Positions 18,948 through 64,000 of a DNA stretch of 64,000 bases are shown here, in pieces. The stretch is from the NCBI RefSeq assembly GCF_030297555.1, contig NZ_AP028136.1, positions 1,178,001 through 1,242,000 on the forward strand, in the 5' to 3' direction. Source of the stretch: Polynucleobacter sp. HIN5. GTDB lineage: Bacteria; Pseudomonadota; Gammaproteobacteria; Burkholderiales; Burkholderiaceae. The translations under genes and the position numbers were made by a program. The notes beneath the pieces are model-generated. The model was not told where the DNA came from. It did no database searches and saw nothing but the letters and a program-made list of their open reading frames with translations. Numbering within the stretch: position 1 is the first letter of the stretch; the number at the start of each line of letters is the position of its first letter.

Positions 18948-20134
18948 TAGCGAGCTCCTTGGCCAGCGGCATTCATGAGGTGCATGAAGCGATCAAATAA
19001 ATAGGCAATGTCATGAGGGCCTGGGGAGGCTTCTGGGTGCCCCTGAAAACAGAAGGCTGGCTTATCTTTCCAGGCGAGACCCTGCAAGGATCCATCAAAT
19101 AAGGAAATATGTGTCACTCGCAACTCATCCGGCAAGGTCTTGGCATCAACTGCAAAGCCATGGTTCTGTGAGGTGATCGCTACCCGACCACTGTCTAAAT
19201 CTTTTACAGGATGGTTTGCACCATGGTGCCCAAACTTCATCTTCAAGGTCTTCGCACCCGCAGCCAAGCCCATGATCTGATGACCCAAGCAAATACCAAA
19301 CGTTGGAATATTTTTACTAATAATGGTTTGCGCTGCACTAATCGCATAATCACAGGGCTCGGGGTCGCCAGGGCCATTGGATAAAAATACGCCATCGGGC
19401 TTTAATGCCAATACTTCAGCCACCGGAGTTTTGGCGGGTACAACCGTCAATGCACAACCGCGCTCGGCCAGCATGCGCAAAATATTGCGTTTGACACCAA
19501 AGTCATAGGCCACAACCCGCTTACTTGGGTTCTTCATGATTCTGAATGCGGGCTTGCCATTCTCACCATGCAACTGCCACTCACCCTCTTGCCACTCATA
19601 GGCAGTATTGGTGGTAACCACTTGCGCGAGATCCAGGCCCGCCATTCCCGGAAATGCCTTGGCTAGGCTTAAAGCACGCTTGGCAAGCGCATCCACATCA
19701 TCGCCAATCTTTCCAGCCACAATCGCGCCTGATTGAGCACCGCGATCACGTAACAGACGCGTGAGCTTGCGAGTATCAATGCCACTGATACCAGGAACTT
19801 TGGCAGCGCGCAGATAATGATCGAGACTGTCTTCGGCTCGAAAGTTTGAGACGCGTGCGGATAAATCTTTAATGATGAGGCCGGCAGCGTAGATTTGTGC
19901 TGACTCCGCGTCTTGGGCATTGACACCCACATTGCCAATGTGCGGATAGGTTAAGGTGACAAGCTGGCGTGCGTAACTCGGATCCGTAATGATTTCTTGA
20001 TAACCCGTTAATGCGGTATTAAAAACGACTTCACCGCTGGTCTCACCAGGAGCGCCGATACTTTGACCAGAGAAAATAGATCCATCAGCAAGAGCTAAAA
20101 CAGCGGGGGGAAAGGAAGGAAGCAAGGGCGACAA
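18947..20134 (-). CDS. carA: Carbamoyl-phosphate synthase small subunit
   Basis: Glutamine amidotransferase subunit that supplies ammonia to CarB. The N-terminal CPSase domain opens with [15 protein letters not shown], and the class I glutaminase domain has catalytic Cys in [11 protein letters not shown] and His/Glu in [11 protein letters not shown]. The TTG at 20134 has GGAG 5 bases upstream and gives 395 residues. The frame opens at an ATG at 20185 (412 residues), but that codon has no good ribosome site and would add an unusual N-terminus. TTG starts are known for carA in other bacteria. The TAATG junction couples it to carB. Confidence 0.95.
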
Positions 20135-20257
20135 ACAATCTCCAATACCCTGTTGCCGTCCAACACTTTTTGCCCCAAAAGACATACCCGAGGCGAAATT
20201 GCGGGGAGGTAAGTGTCTTTAAGCGCTAGGGCAAATTATTAGTTACTGATAGGCGTA

Positions 20258-20266
20258 ATGATACCA
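20258..20266 (-). promoter_or_regulatory. Candidate extended -10 upstream of carA
   Basis: On the minus strand TGGTATCAT in the 130-base prpE-carA gap has a TG just ahead of a TATCAT hexamer, an extended -10 pattern. No convincing -35 is seen 17 bases upstream. No arginine or pyrimidine operator could be recognised. The rest of the gap shows nothing I can name. Confidence 0.35.
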
Positions 20267-20316
20267 GTTCTCCGCCCCTCACCCTACCTTCACGCAAAAC
20301 CGTTTACTTTGCCCGG

Positions 20317-22194
20317 CTACTTTCCAATCACCAGTTTGATCTGCGCTAGAACCGATTGATCTTCCATCGTACTGATATCCCCGGGATCGCGCCCTTCCGC
20401 AACTGCTTGCAATGCCCGGCGCACAATCTTGCCCGAACGCGTCTTTGGTAATGCACTCACCAAATACACGCGGGCGGGTCGTGCCACCGCACCTAGTTGA
20501 GAGTCGACGGTCTTCATGACCTCCGCTTCCATGTTCTCGGTTTTATTTGGATCCTTTGCGATCACAAAGCCAATTGCTACCTGACCCTTGAGTTGATCCT
20601 CCACTCCAACGACTGCCACTTCGGCAACATTAGCGTGACTAGAAATGCTCTCCTCGATCTCGCGTGTCCCCAATCGGTGTCCAGCGACGTTAATCACATC
20701 ATCGGTGCGGCCCAAGATGAAGAAGTAACCATCTTTATCTTTAATTGCCCAATCAAAGGTGGAATACACCATCTTGCCAGGCACGGTCTCCCAATAGGTC
20801 TTAATAAAGCGTTGATCATCGCCCCACACGGTCTGCATGCATCCGGGTGGCAATGGCCCTTCAATGGCAACCACGCCCTTTTGATCTGGGCCCAACTCAG
20901 CACCGGTTGCTTCATCGAGTAGTTTCATGTTGTAGCCATAGACCGGCACACCAGGTGAGCCAAATTTATGTGGCATCACCTCCACGCCTCGCTGAATCGC
21001 CAAGATTGGCCAACCGGTCTCGGTCTGCCAGTAGTTATCCACCACGGGCTTCTTAAGCGCATCATGAATCCATGAAGCCGTTGGTTCATCGAGCGGCTCA
21101 CCGGCTAAAAACAGAGTCCGTAGTGTCGATAAGTTGTATTTACTTAAGAAGGCGGGGTCCTGTTTCTTGAGTACTCGCACCGCCGTGGGAGCAGAGAACA
21201 TCACCGACACCTTGTATTTCTCAACTAAGCTCCACCAAATACCTGCGTCAGGGCGCAAGGGTGTGCCCTCGTACATGATGGTGGCCATGCCATTAATGAG
21301 TGGGCCATAGATGATGTAGCTATGCCCGACTACCCAACCAATGTCGGAGGTGGTAAACATGGTCTCACCTGGATTACCACCAAAGATGAGGCGCATCGAG
21401 CTTGCCAGTGCAACTGCATAACCGCCCGTATCACGCTGTACCCCCTTGGGTTTGCCAGTGGTGCCAGAGGTATACAAAATATAGGAGGGATGGGTTGCAT
21501 CGACCCACTCGACGGGAACCTTGGTGTTGAAATGCTTCTCACGCTCAGAGGCGTAATCCAAATCGCGATTGGCCACGGTGGTGTATTCCGAGAGACCGCG
21601 GTTCACAATCAATACCTTCTCAGGCTTGGCGGTTGATAGTGTGATCGCCTCATCGAGGAGTGGCTTGTAAGGCACTGCCTTGCCACCGCGCATTCCGGCC
21701 TCGGCAGTAATAATCATCTTGGGCTTCGCATCATCGATCCGGGAAGCCAAACTATGCGATGCAAATCCACCAAACACGACTGAATGAATTGCGCCAATGC
21801 GAGTACAAGCGAGCATTGCAAAGCAGGCTTGCGCAATCATTGGCATGTAAATCAGAACACGATCGCCCTTCTTCACTCCGTTGGCTTGCAAGATCGCAGC
21901 CATGCGATTGACCTCATCATGCAGCTCTGCAAATGTATAGGCATGCTCCTGATTGGTTTCGGTGGAGACCGCAACCAATGCGATCTGGTTTGCACGATCC
22001 TTTAAATGGCGATCAACGGCATTGTGGCAAAGATTGGTTTGCCCGCCGACAAACCACTTTGCAAAGGGTGGATTGGAATAATCGAGGACTTGTGAAAACG
22101 GCTGATGCCAATCAACTAATTTAGCCTGCTCAGACCAAAATGATTTTGGATCCCGAATGGAGTTCTCATGAAATGATTTGTAGCCCGTACTCAT
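20317..22194 (-). CDS. prpE: Propionate-CoA ligase (propionyl-CoA synthetase)
   Basis: Activates propionate, and usually acetate more weakly, to the acyl-CoA via an acyl-adenylate. The 625-residue protein carries the AMP-binding core YTSGTTGKPKGVQRDTGG, whose RDTGG extension is typical of PrpE rather than Acs. It also has YWQTETGWP, the hinge GRTDDVINVAGHRL, and the C-terminal catalytic Lys in LPKTRSGKIVRRAL. No other propionate gene is adjacent; mmsA at 36372 is the nearest propionyl-CoA-related gene. An acetyl-CoA synthetase role is the alternative. Confidence 0.9.
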   Translation of the reverse strand: MSTGYKSFHENSIRDPKSFWSEQAKLVDWHQPFSQVLDYSNPPFAKWFVGGQTNLCHNAVDRHLKDRANQIALVAVSTETNQEHAYTFAELHDEVNRMAAILQANGVKKGDRVLIYMPMIAQACFAMLACTRIGAIHSVVFGGFASHSLASRIDDAKPKMIITAEAGMRGGKAVPYKPLLDEAITLSTAKPEKVLIVNRGLSEYTTVANRDLDYASEREKHFNTKVPVEWVDATHPSYILYTSGTTGKPKGVQRDTGGYAVALASSMRLIFGGNPGETMFTTSDIGWVVGHSYIIYGPLINGMATIMYEGTPLRPDAGIWWSLVEKYKVSVMFSAPTAVRVLKKQDPAFLSKYNLSTLRTLFLAGEPLDEPTASWIHDALKKPVVDNYWQTETGWPILAIQRGVEVMPHKFGSPGVPVYGYNMKLLDEATGAELGPDQKGVVAIEGPLPPGCMQTVWGDDQRFIKTYWETVPGKMVYSTFDWAIKDKDGYFFILGRTDDVINVAGHRLGTREIEESISSHANVAEVAVVGVEDQLKGQVAIGFVIAKDPNKTENMEAEVMKTVDSQLGAVARPARVYLVSALPKTRSGKIVRRALQAVAEGRDPGDISTMEDQSVLAQIKLVIGK

Positions 22195-59414: not shown

Positions 59415-60962
59415 TTAGGGTGCCATCTGGGCATTGAGCTTGATGGCGCTTGGATCGTGCAATTTATTTAAAGCTGCCAAATAAGCCTTGGCCGAGGCGG
59501 CAATGATGTCGGGGTCCATGCCCACTCCGTTCACAATCCGCCCCCCTTTGGAGAGCCGCACTGTGACCTCGCCCTGCGACTCCGTACCCGACGTAATGGC
59601 ATTCACCGAGTAAAGCAAAAGTTCGGCACCACTTTGCACCTTGTTCTCAATGGCATGCAAGGTGGCATCGACTGGACCATTGCCTTCGGCCTCCGAATGC
59701 ACATCGTGACCGCCCATCTTGAACACCACCTTCGCCGATGGCTTTTCACCGGTCTCAGAATGTTGGTTCAAGGAAATGAAACTGAAGTGCTCATTCTGAT
59801 CAGCCACTGAAGAGTCTGACATTAAAGAAATAATGTCTTCATCAAAAATCTCGGCCTTTTGATCGGCTAAAGCTTTAAAGCGTGCAAATGCATCATTGAG
59901 TTCACTCTCCGACTCCAACACAATCCCCAACTCGGCAATGCGTTGCTTAAAGGCATTGCGACCAGACAACTTACCCAGCACGATGCGGTTGGTCGCCCAG
60001 CCCACATCTTCGGCACGCATAATTTCATAGGTATCGCGCGCTTTCAATACGCCGTCCTGATGAATACCTGATGCATGGGCAAAGGCATTGGCGCCAACCA
60101 CTGCTTTATTTGGTTGCACCACAAAGCCTGTGATTTGCGAAACCAACTTAGAGGCTGGCACGATCTGTTTGGTATCAATGCCCACATCCAATTGAAAGAA
60201 ATCCTTCCGAGTTCGTACCGCCATGACAATTTCTTCTAAGGACGTATTGCCCGCGCGCTCGCCAAGACCATTAATCGTGCACTCCACCTGGCGGGCGCCG
60301 CCAATGTGCACACCAGCTAAGGAGTTGGCCACGCCCATCCCTAAATCGTTATGGCAATGCACGGACCAAATTGCTTTATCCGAGTTCGGAATCCGAGTGC
60401 GTAAGGTTTTAATGAACTCGCCGTAGAGTTCAGGAACGGCATAGCCAACCGTATCAGGAACATTAATCGTGCTCGCACCTTCTGCAATGACCGCTTCCAA
60501 GACCCGGCACAAGAAGTCTATGTCCGAACGGTAGCCATCCTCAGGAGAGAACTCAATATCCCCAGCCAAGTTTCTGGCAAAGCGGATGGATTTTTTGGCC
60601 TGCTCATACACCTGCTCCGGGGTCATGCGCAATTTCTTTTCCATGTGCAACGCACTGGTTGCCAAGAACACATGAATCCGTTTTGCATTGGCTGCCTTCA
60701 AGGCATCGGAAGCACGCGTGATATCAGTCTCATTGGCACGTGCGAGTGAGCACACTACCGAGTCTTTCACCGCTGCAGCAACGGCAGAGATTGCTGCAAA
60801 GTCACCCTCTGAGCTAGCCGCAAAGCCGGCCTCAATCACATCGACCCGTAAGCGTTCAAGTTGACGAGCAATCCGTACTTTCTCATCCCGGGTCATCGAT
60901 GCACCAGGTGACTGCTCACCATCACGCAAGGTGGTATCAAAAATAATTAATCGGTCACTCAT
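59415..60962 (-). CDS. leuA: 2-isopropylmalate synthase
   Basis: First committed step of leucine synthesis, joining acetyl-CoA and 2-ketoisovalerate. The N-terminus is [20 protein letters not shown], and the metal site HCHNDLGMG lies near residue 205. The C-terminal LeuA dimer domain (about 390-510), which binds feedback leucine, is present. Two ATGs are adjacent; the second (60962, 515 residues) has AAGGA at better spacing than the first (60965). A leucine-rich leader peptide and terminator directly upstream indicate attenuation. Confidence 0.97.
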
Positions 60963-61001
60963 CATTGATTCCTTCTTTAATAATCCAATACTCTGTTTTC
61001 T

Positions 61002-61032
61002 AAAACAAAAACCCCAGCGGTTTGGCTGGGGC
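61002..61032 (-). terminator. Leucine attenuator terminator upstream of leuA
   Basis: On the minus strand CCCCAGC and GCTGGGG (61031-61025, 61018-61012) form a perfect 7-bp GC-rich stem with a 6-base loop, followed by TTTTTGTTTT (61011-61002). It lies about 37 bases before leuA. Its 5' arm GCCCCAGCC (61032-61024) can instead pair with GGCTCGGGGC (61088-61079) just after the leucine codons, giving 9 bp with one bulged C. That is an antiterminator arrangement. Confidence 0.9.
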
Positions 61033-61065
61033 TGGTTTGCGAACTTAGTGCCTTACTTCATGTGT

Positions 61066-61137
61066 CTAAGCGCGACCCGCCCCGAGCCGAAGGCCCAGTG
61101 CTAGAAGAAGTAGAAATGCACTTAATTGATTCATCAT
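61066..61137 (-). CDS. leuL: Leucine-rich leader peptide of leuA attenuator
   Basis: A 23-codon frame starting ATG ATG encodes MMNQLSAFLLLLALGLRLG followed by AGRA and a TAG stop. Eight of 23 codons are leucine, with four in a row (CTA CTT CTT CTA). A TATAGT hexamer (61149-61144) is placed so that transcription would begin near the first ATG. No Shine-Dalgarno is visible, so translation may be leaderless or depend on upstream read-through from pssA. GGGCC (61096-61092), directly after the leucine run, can pair with GGCTC (61088-61084), part of the antiterminator arm. A ribosome stalled on the leucine codons would cover it. It is too short for normal ORF calling. Confidence 0.85.
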   Translation of the reverse strand: MMNQLSAFLLLLALGLRLGAGRA

Positions 61138-61155
61138 GTAAATACTATACCGCAT

Positions 61156-62031
61156 TTACTCGGACTTGGCCGAGACTGTGGTTTCGCCACCAATCCGACG
61201 GCCCATCGCCCGCTCCCACATCCACAATACATAGCCAGACAGGGAATACACCACAAAGAGGCCAAATAGAGTCAAGGGTGGATTCGAAGAAATCAATACA
61301 AAACCGAGGATCAAAAGAACCATGGCCCAGAACGGTACTCGATACCGAATATCCAAGGCCTTGCCACTGTAAAAACGGGCGTTCGAAACCATGGTGAGTC
61401 CTGCATAAATCGTAATGAAGAAGGTTACCAACGGAATCGCAGAGTCCTTGACTGGTATCTTGTTATCGTCAGCCAACCAAATAAAACCCGCCAAGAGCGC
61501 TGCAGCCGCTGGACTTGGCAGGCCCTGGAAAAACTTTTTATCCACCACACCAATGTTGGCATTAAAGCGCGCCAATCGAAGTGCGGCGCCGGCACAGTAG
61601 GTAAATGCTGCTAACCAACCCCACTTACCCAGATCTTTTAAGACCCACTCATACGCCACTAAGGCTGGAGCCACACCGAATGAGACCATGTCAGCCAGAG
61701 AATCGTATTGCTCACCAAATGCACTTTGCGTGTTGGTCATCCGCGCGATTCGACCATCCATGCCATCAAGCACTAGTGAAGCAAAGACGGCGATGGCCGC
61801 AACTTCAAAACGATGGTTCATCGCGTTCACAATCGCAAAGAACCCGCAGAACAATGCCGCCGTCGTAAATAAATTCGGTAATAAGTAAATACCTTTGCTC
61901 CGAGGACGAGGCGGCTCGACGACAAGATCATCCTCCGTTAAATCCTCCGCAGAATCCCACTCCTCGCGTCGCGTATTTTTACTCCGCAGAAAACGCGAGC
62001 GGTCCGTACGGAACTTACTGCGCGGGGTCAT
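61156..62031 (-). CDS. pssA: CDP-diacylglycerol-serine O-phosphatidyltransferase
   Basis: Makes phosphatidylserine, the precursor of phosphatidylethanolamine. The 291-residue membrane protein has a roughly 45-residue basic/acidic cytoplasmic N-terminus and about eight spans. The CDP-alcohol phosphotransferase signature reads DGMDGRIARMTNTQSAFGEQYDS in outline: DG-x2-DGRIAR, then G-x3-D-x3-D near residues 89-115. It follows psd by 3 bases. Downstream, 18 bases past its stop, the leuL leader begins. Confidence 0.95.
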   Translation of the reverse strand: MTPRSKFRTDRSRFLRSKNTRREEWDSAEDLTEDDLVVEPPRPRSKGIYLLPNLFTTAALFCGFFAIVNAMNHRFEVAAIAVFASLVLDGMDGRIARMTNTQSAFGEQYDSLADMVSFGVAPALVAYEWVLKDLGKWGWLAAFTYCAGAALRLARFNANIGVVDKKFFQGLPSPAAAALLAGFIWLADDNKIPVKDSAIPLVTFFITIYAGLTMVSNARFYSGKALDIRYRVPFWAMVLLILGFVLISSNPPLTLFGLFVVYSLSGYVLWMWERAMGRRIGGETTVSAKSE

Positions 62032-62034
62032 GGC

Positions 62035-62682
62035 CTAATCCAATCCCGGTAAACGAGCAAGCGCGGTATTGGTAGCAAAGACCTTCTCGCCAACACTCAC
62101 TAAGGGCTCGGCCTCCAAAGGCAAATACACATCTACCCTCGATCCGAAGCGGATAAATCCATAACGTTCGCCGCGTTTCACACGGTCGTTGACGCGGATG
62201 TAGCATAAAATTCGTCGTGCAACCAAACCTGCGATTTGCACTAAGGTGACCGTTTTACCATTAGCGTCAATCACGACCGCATTACGCTCATTCTCCGTCG
62301 AGGCCTTATCAATACTGGCATTAAAGAACTTGCCTGGGAAATAGGTGACCTGCTTAACAAGGCCACTCACGGCACAGCGATTGGAGTGCACATTAAAGAC
62401 GTTCATAAACACACTAATCTTTAAGGCTTCCCGATTGGCATAGGGGTCATGGGCTTTCTCAACCACCACAATACGGCCATCGGCTGGCGATAAAACAAGA
62501 TCTTTCCCTAAGGGGGCGATTCGTTGTGGATCACGGAAGAACTGCAAGGTGAAGATAAAGAATAGCCACAATGGCCATGACCAGAAAAAACCTGCGTAGC
62601 GATGCACCACAAAAGCGAAGGCCCCAATCACAACCAGATAGAGCCAGCCCTCTTTGGCAATGATGGGGTGTGGATACATCAT
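62035..62682 (-). CDS. psd: Phosphatidylserine decarboxylase proenzyme
   Basis: Converts phosphatidylserine to phosphatidylethanolamine using a pyruvoyl group. The 215-residue short-form proenzyme is expected to self-cleave between Gly180 and Ser181 in [19 protein letters not shown] near residue 65 and [11 protein letters not shown] near 92 are conserved. One or two N-terminal membrane helices lie in residues 12-48. It lies 21 bases after ilvC and 3 bases before pssA. Confidence 0.95.
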
Positions 62683-62703
62683 CAGATGATTTACCTTCTG
62701 AAC

Positions 62704-63729
<1,026 letters not shown>

Positions 63730-63755
63730 TTAAATTAAATAAAGAGTGATTAAAA

Positions 63756-64000
63756 CTAAACTTTGAGAATGCGTTCTCCGCGCCCAATTCCTGAACCGCC
63801 AGAGCGGACAGTTTCCAGAATCGATGCGCGATCAATTGCGCTAATAAATGCATCTAACTTACTACTTACACCGGTTAGCTCGATCGTGTAACTTTTATCG
63901 GTCACATCAATAATGCGGCCTCGGAATATATCCGTAGTGCGTTTTAACTCCTCACGCTCCTTACCGACCGCCCTCACCTTAATCATCATGAGCTCGCGCT
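63756..64000 (-). CDS. ilvH: Acetolactate synthase small subunit, 5' part outside the window
   Basis: Regulatory subunit of acetolactate synthase. About 81 C-terminal residues are visible out of about 163. The frame stays open to the window edge (REL precedes the MMIKVRAVGKEREEL segment), so the ATG at 63989 is internal. The visible part is the C-terminal ACT-like domain (DKSYTIELTGVSSKLDAFI, ending GRGERILKV). It leads into ilvC. Confidence 0.93.
   Translation of the reverse strand, partial: RELMMIKVRAVGKEREELKRTTDIFRGRIIDVTDKSYTIELTGVSSKLDAFISAIDRASILETVRSGGSGIGRGERILKV

Follow-up and report, generated by a model that had tools for sequence, protein, structure and literature searches.

The leu attenuator of enteric bacteria, represented in Rfam by the Leu_leader family, has a leader with CTA codons for Leu. 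In E. coli and Salmonella, this leader has 28 residues, four of which are Leu, and putative leaders and terminators precede such genes in various Gram-negative species, as described in the available text of a review (PMC6123439). A leuA attenuator featuring terminator, antiterminator and anti-antiterminator stems, Leu codons and compensatory changes has been predicted in Shewanella (PMC2659441), and in actinobacteria a short ORF with Leu codons, the LEU element, lies before leuA (PMC1262725).

Leaders translated from leaderless RNAs have been described for other amino acids. In Sinorhizobium meliloti, the 5' end of the trpL RNA is the ATG of the leader ORF, and attenuation is ribosome-dependent (PMC7298713). 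In Corynebacterium glutamicum, transcription of ilvBNC starts one nucleotide from the start codon of a leader featuring branched-chain codons and a terminator hairpin (PMC11857589). Mycobacterial leaderless polycysteine ORFs, known here from a title cited in PMC13236596, are short ORFs acting as amino-acid attenuators. Leucine attenuation before leuA is of a classical kind, and precedents for a leaderless leader exist in trpL of S. meliloti and ilvBNC of C. glutamicum, as far as the accessible parts of these sources go.

Here we describe the region upstream of leuA in Polynucleobacter sp. HIN5. With a probability that we set at roughly 0.86, this region carries a ribosome-mediated, leucine-responsive transcription attenuator of leuA, the leader peptide of which would be translated from a leaderless transcript.

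The leader region upstream of leuA

The window, i.e., the whole stretch of 64,000 nucleotides that was analysed, carries on its minus strand, in this order, pssA, a TATAGT hexamer, six bases, a leader ATG at 61137, a terminator and leuA. Genes and signals are as follows:

61156..62031, minus strand: pssA, the upstream gene, with stop codon TAA at 61158-61156 (NCBIfam TIGR00473 above cut-off)
61144..61149, minus strand: TATAGT, a -10-type promoter hexamer 6 nt before the leader ATG
61066..61137, minus strand: leader peptide ORF MMNQLSAFLLLLALGLRLGAGRA, 23 codons, without a Shine-Dalgarno sequence (coding signature in 36 aligned rows)
61102..61113, minus strand: four adjacent Leu control codons, CTA CTT CTT CTA, codons 9-12 of the leader (Leu conserved in the 36 rows)
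60970..60975, minus strand: GAAGGA, Shine-Dalgarno-like sequence of leuA
59415..60965, minus strand: leuA (2-isopropylmalate synthase), the putatively controlled gene (NCBIfam TIGR00973 and NF002087 above cut-off)

NCBIfam models for LeuA, PssA, phosphatidylserine decarboxylase and IlvC scored above cut-off, confirming the names leuA, pssA, psd and ilvC given to these genes in the first-pass annotation. The same annotation regarded the ilvC-psd-pssA-leuA setting as unusual. This view was dropped: in 52 of the 79 regions sampled at order level, and in 31 of the 40 at class level, pssA shares the strand of leuA and lies no more than about 900 bases upstream of it. Since both this gene order and similar leaders are frequent in the two samples, the place is ordinary, and the leucine leader before leuA is probably old. 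In the same genome, leuC was located, and no branched-chain leader was seen by eye among the small ORFs in the 280 bases upstream of ilvB.

The region has no match in Rfam 15, T-box included, when the window is searched at the gathering score or positions 60950-61200 at E values up to 5. A known Rfam element, Leu_leader among them, was therefore rejected for lack of a covariance-model match. Elsewhere in the window, positions 20126-20328 of the minus strand match the Rfam carA motif (RF04192) with 101.8 bits. This motif occurs mostly in Polynucleobacter, according to the accessible part of PMC8632094.

The leader ORF runs from the ATG at 61137 to a TAG stop at 61068-61066. Eight of its 23 residues are Leu, four of them consecutive, exactly as previously noted, which makes it a short ORF rich in codons for the product of the pathway, as attenuators of this class have, and one that is conserved in the 36 rows. 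An in-frame ATG at 61155, which adjoins the pssA stop codon, would lengthen the leader to 29 codons. ATG-initiated ORFs of 8-45 codons encoding LLLL occur once per strand in the 64 kb, and only the leuA leader has a terminator near its end.

The search for relatives covered 61 genomes of the genus. All of them matched, one (G028) only weakly, and the DNA upstream of leuA was analysed in the other 60 (L081-L140); 36 of these 60 loci were aligned, with the window standing for L081. A Leu-rich leader is kept in 60/60 loci and has a length of 22-30 residues, measured from the most upstream in-frame ATG. Codons 9, 10, 11, 12 and 14 specify Leu in 36, 29, 33, 35 and 36 of the 36 aligned rows, respectively. 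Codon 10 encodes other residues in seven rows, Pro in three of these, and the longest Leu run is only 2 or 3 in 11 of the 60 leaders. Positions 1 and 2 of the Leu codons are mostly fixed in the 36 rows, and third positions are 39-78% identical. The maintenance of Leu while third positions vary points to selection on the meaning of the codons, not on the bases.

Measured against the ORFs of the window only, codon choice in the leaders is uneven: CTA is the rarest Leu codon in the 45 long ORFs of the window (8.1% of 1848), yet it is the most frequent one where the Leu codons of the leaders are most densely packed (96/307). In the leader of the window itself, two of the eight Leu codons are CTA (p 0.13). 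Conservation of the peptide is mainly confined to the Leu codons and to stretches involved in RNA pairing, and residues 4-8 vary. At one locus (L089:3097-3279), a single base is missing downstream of the Leu run, so that the frame changes and translation would end at another stop codon, with stems and Leu run left intact. This suggests that the C-terminal residues of the leader may be less important than the RNA.

The hexamer upstream of the leader, which the first-pass annotation did not mention, is present as TATATT, TATAGT or TATGAT in 60/60 Polynucleobacter loci, at a distance of 6 nt (50 loci), 7 nt (9) or 8 nt (1) from the ATG. Distances of 3-14 nt were allowed, and the list of three hexamers was picked after a first look at the loci. 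No clear -35 element precedes the hexamer in the Polynucleobacter loci examined. A Shine-Dalgarno-like tetramer was found before 8 of 60 leaders, compared with 54 of 60 leuA starts, and by eye the leader of the window has none, as a leaderless attenuator would require. The constant distance of 6-8 nt between hexamer and ATG suggests that the leader is probably served by a separate promoter directly before the ATG and probably transcribed as a leaderless RNA, predicted to begin on the ATG or no more than 1-2 nt away from it. Messages of this type, in which a TA-rich motif immediately precedes the start codon, have been described in Burkholderia cenocepacia (PMC4603805), and many leaderless messages in Cupriavidus metallidurans (PMC7563307); in the text available, leuA is not mentioned in the latter source and isopropylmalate in neither. 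If the leader has its own promoter, leuA would be uncoupled from psd-pssA, as initially proposed, but mainly by this predicted promoter rather than by attenuation of a shared pssA-leuA transcript.

Alternative pairings and their conservation in Polynucleobacter

Twenty-nine bases after the leader stop, the DNA reads ACCAGCCCCAGC, a 6-base loop, GCTGGGGTT and TTTGTTTT, followed by leuA. The terminator stem (61033-61025/61018-61010) has 9 bp and is accompanied by a U tract, the whole element spanning 61033-61002. The end of the tract at 61002 is 37 nt from the leuA ATG at 60965, the distance originally reported for the stem and T tract. An intrinsic terminator therefore precedes the first structural gene, in the window as in the 60 loci of the genus. 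The pairing elements are:

61092..61101, minus strand: region 1, 5' arm of the 1:2 (anti-antiterminator) hairpin (fold; 5 of 8 pairs changed on both sides in 36 rows)
61075..61088, minus strand: region 2, GGCTCGGGGCGGGT, partner of region 1 or region 3 (fold and covariation)
61024..61036, minus strand: region 3, ACCAGCCCCAGCC, pairing with region 2 (antiterminator) or region 4 (fold and comparison)
61010..61018, minus strand: region 4, GCTGGGGTT, 3' arm of the terminator (paired with region 3 in every cell of the 36 rows)
61002..61011, minus strand: TTTTTGTTTT, U tract of the intrinsic terminator, the first two T of which are also paired (U-tract terminator in 60/60 Polynucleobacter loci)

Folding reproduced the pairing of GGGCC (61096-61092) with GGCTC (61088-61084) that had been drawn from inspection alone. 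The segment containing GGCTC also pairs with the 5' arm of the terminator, as claimed, but the 9 bp assigned to this antiterminator fell short. When region 1 was left out of the RNAfold input, mimicking a stalled ribosome, GGCU, GGGGC and GGU (61088-61075) paired with ACC, GCCCC and AGCC (61036-61024), giving 12 pairs. The mutually exclusive 1:2, 2:3 and 3:4 pairings typical of the class are thus present, the first of them next to the control codons, with 2:3 weak when it is not anchored.

Tests on the single sequence gave mixed results. A terminator scan of positions 59500-64000 found 6 sites, compared with 5.5 expected, and because this count matches that of shuffled sequence, the scan alone was rejected as proof of an attenuator. 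The terminator alone folds better than shuffles (0/200, z -3.8). For the whole leader, the advantage over shuffles is slight (z -1.57, 14/200), and its folding energy was rejected as too weak a proof. Taken alone, the 1:2 hairpin of the window is not significant, being matched by 25 of 200 shuffles. Since these tests are weak in part, the decisive evidence comes from conservation, for which shuffle statistics on the stems ignore kinship among rows.

In the 1:2 stem, 79.5% of cells are paired, and 17 double changes occur in the 36 rows. The covariation score is 0.225, versus 0.140 in shuffled alignments (0/500), and exceeds that of every slid version of the stem. Of five measures, three are unreached by any of 500 shuffles, and two are reached by 41 and 38. 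In 31 of the 36 rows, the innermost position of the stem is unpaired. Single folds of the variants shown predict the 1:2 hairpin in all but L138. In the 3:4 stem, every cell is paired in the 36 rows, and covariation is not reached by any of 500 shuffles; as the stem hardly varies, 324 of 500 shuffles do at least as well on two measures.

The 2:3 stem is the weakest part of the case. On the MAFFT columns, it shows three double-changed cells; four measures are reached by 16-28 of 500 shuffles and the fifth by 121, and three of six slid versions score higher in covariation. The weakness on these columns results from a slipped register, one subgroup of the alignment being displaced by one column at 2:3. 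Pairs were recounted with the arms anchored on GGGG and CCCC (CCCCAG), choosing the best GGGG where several were available. Among 16 distinct arm pairs, a mean of 4.69 of 7 variable positions are paired, compared with 3.84 when partners are swapped (0/5000, a figure that ignores kinship). Telling arm pairs are GGGGUUCGUG with CACAAACCCC (L138) and GGGGCUAG with CUAACCCC (L135). The first-pass annotation had suggested aligning the pssA-leuA gap within and beyond the genus; within Polynucleobacter, the Leu codons and paired changes proved to be conserved, most strongly in 1:2, but support for 2:3 was weak on raw columns.

Leaders outside the genus

Leaders were called as ATG-initiated ORFs of 12-45 codons having at least 3 Leu in 8 codons and a TA...T hexamer 5-9 bases upstream. 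Controls were 964 equal-length segments from DNA further upstream, taken from both strands and mostly coding. Three samples were used: 71 named loci (80 of 589 scan matches, minus the Polynucleobacter-like L001-L009), an order set of 79 regions (80 of 102 order-level matches outside the genus, minus L155, which has 92 bases) and a class set of 40 of 43 class-level matches. Two places were tried in named loci where the pssA-leuA gap is long. A leader was called in 60 of the 71 named loci and in 47 of the 79 order-level regions, compared with 18 of 964 control segments; none was called in the other 11 and 32, respectively. With at least 4 Leu in 8 codons required, 41 of the 79 order-level regions, distributed over 25 of 45 family codes, still passed, compared with 10 of 964 controls. 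The caller also passes 17 of 40 class-level regions, and at least one of these ORFs (L234) resembles the end of pssA.

In nine named loci (L030, L040, L048, L051, L056, L064, L066, L074 and L079), pssA is separated from the matched leuA by about 1.9-2.0 kb, and in 9/9 a leader was called right after pssA. The long gap ends, by eye, in a LeuA-like C-terminus, and leuA thus seems to be doubled in tandem at these loci.

Leaders in the order-level regions (L144-L223) end in CTG CTG CTG CGC nnn GCG CGC stop, or similar, a form that is widely shared. A self-complementary GCGC...GCGC directly adjoins their terminal Leu codons (LLLRPAR, for example), and GCGC-N2-5-GCGC surrounds the last codons in 40 of 41 order-set leaders. 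ORFs at class level often end in LLLP. With Pro as the last residue, such ORFs are reminiscent of stalling leaders. In the class-level regions (L227-L266), Leu-rich ORFs ending in LRLLP or LLLLP plus stop occur before leuA in 21 of 40 cases; this LLP-type pattern was chosen after a first look, and start codons other than ATG were allowed.

Two tests for U-tract terminators were used, strict and lax, the strict one missing visible terminators among the named loci. In Polynucleobacter, 60/60 loci pass both (shuffled 0-3 for the lax test). Named loci with a leader directly before leuA pass in 35/51 (strict) and 43/51 (lax) cases (shuffled 2-10). Order-set leaders do so in 3/41 and 9/41 cases (shuffled 1-3), and RNAalifold found no consensus structure in this set except for a three-pair stem. 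At order level, the suggested comparison therefore recovered a similar leader in many regions, but the U-tract terminator in few. The 30 bases after order-set leader stops contain 40% C and 13% G, compared with 29% and 31% in DNA further upstream; Polynucleobacter leaders have no C excess after the stop. It is possible that this C-rich, G-poor RNA would suit a Rho- or pause-based switch. A simple Rho model, with a C-rich Rho site hidden under a ribosome that has stalled on Leu codons, fits the distances poorly, and no model was found that accommodates them.

We tentatively suggest, at somewhat less than even odds, that an old leaderless leucine leader in the pssA-leuA gap is common to many families of this betaproteobacterial order and to part of the class as sampled. 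Many of these leaders would seemingly lack an intrinsic terminator, while Polynucleobacter and Comamonadaceae-type relatives would have a classical one under the same layout. A shared layout of leader and promoter, joined to an intrinsic terminator in certain lineages but apparently to a different device elsewhere, would amount to a natural experiment. The presence or apparent replacement of the terminator under one layout suggests that attenuators may allow their termination module to be exchanged.

Proposed mechanism, alternatives and known systems

The leucine attenuator recognised in the first-pass annotation is well supported in the genus by conserved Leu codons, terminators and alternative pairings, from which we infer the response to leucine itself. 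RNA polymerase would start at or next to the leader ATG at 61137, from a promoter within the pssA-leuA gap, and ribosomes would bind the 5'-terminal ATG without a Shine-Dalgarno sequence. With little leucyl-tRNA, a ribosome would stall on the Leu run (61113-61102) and cover region 1, which begins right after the run. Region 2 could then pair with region 3, according to the computed folds, and transcription would proceed into leuA. With enough leucine, the ribosome would reach the stop at 61066 and cover region 2, allowing the 3:4 terminator to form and transcription to end near 61002. Without translation, 1:2 would form, and so would the terminator. Transcripts that enter from pssA, in which no clear signal marks the start of the leader, would be expected to end at the same terminator.

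A hairpin that follows pssA and precedes leuA could simply be the terminator of psd-pssA, leuA having a constitutive promoter and the Leu-rich ORF no regulatory role, all the more so as terminator-like sites turn up by chance in such scans. However, the conserved promoter-like hexamer is upstream of the hairpin, so RNA started there must meet the terminator before leuA. Moreover, a plain terminator does not fit with Leu codons that are kept while third positions are free, with covariation in the 1:2 and anchored 2:3 alternatives, or with the maintenance of the Leu ORF in many relatives having no detected U-tract terminator. We regard this explanation as very improbable.

Attenuation might also operate with a leader that is not leaderless but is translated from transcripts started upstream, for instance by reinitiation at the ATG at 61155, which is in frame and directly follows the pssA stop codon. 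The distance between pssA and leuA varies widely in the genus, however, whereas the spacing of hexamer and ATG stays within 6-8 nt in 60/60 loci; 52 of 60 leaders have no Shine-Dalgarno-like tetramer, and in L139, which has the same peptide end, the equivalent frame is stopped before the leader (by eye). This makes translation from upstream transcripts highly unlikely as well, if slightly less so than a plain terminator. Least likely of the three is a role in trans, besides attenuation, for the leader peptide or for the short terminated RNA, as in the trp leader of S. meliloti. For a leaderless attenuator RNA, a function in trans is on record there (PMC7298713, as far as available), but the peptide described here is conserved mainly where Leu codons or pairing stretches require it, with residues 4-8 varying and one species having a shifted C-terminus.

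The favoured reading, a leucine attenuator translated from a leaderless transcript, would provide a testable model of leaderless initiation feeding a stall-based switch, and would add a leaderless leucine attenuator to the proteobacteria. In the literature found, as far as it was accessible, leaderless leaders come from the trp system of an alphaproteobacterium and, for other amino acids, from actinobacteria. No betaproteobacterial leuA leader peptide was recognised in a search of mostly open-access literature. PMC1262725 cites a comparative survey of proteobacterial attenuators (Vitreschak 2004). Given this survey and the putative Gram-negative leaders of the review cited above, an earlier prediction of the leuA leader is possible.

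Like the enteric leu attenuator, in so far as its description was available, the window features a leader peptide with Leu control codons and a putative attenuation of leuA. It differs in having no Rfam match, other neighbouring genes, no Shine-Dalgarno sequence and a -10 hexamer 6 nt before the ATG. The Shewanella attenuator, likened by description, is built from the same kinds of stems, codons and compensatory changes, but belongs to a gammaproteobacterium, and the available text of PMC2659441 mentions neither 'leaderless' nor Burkholderia nor betaproteobacteria. S. meliloti trpL, also likened by description, has the 5' end at the leader ATG that is predicted here, but concerns another amino acid, an alphaproteobacterium and a peptide of 14 residues. 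C. glutamicum ilvBNC, which is similar in its branched-chain codons, its terminator hairpin and a start site like the one predicted here, is from an actinobacterium and differs in operon and structures, and the mycobacterial ORFs, likened by title alone, concern cysteine and are also actinobacterial. The LEU element, as far as its description is accessible (PMC1262725), lacks parts of a classical attenuator, like the relatives here without a U-tract terminator. Its description places a pseudoknot and a stem downstream of the Leu run, ahead of the leuA Shine-Dalgarno sequence, whereas the window has an ordinary terminator, and folds of the leader in the window show stems other than that of the LEU element.
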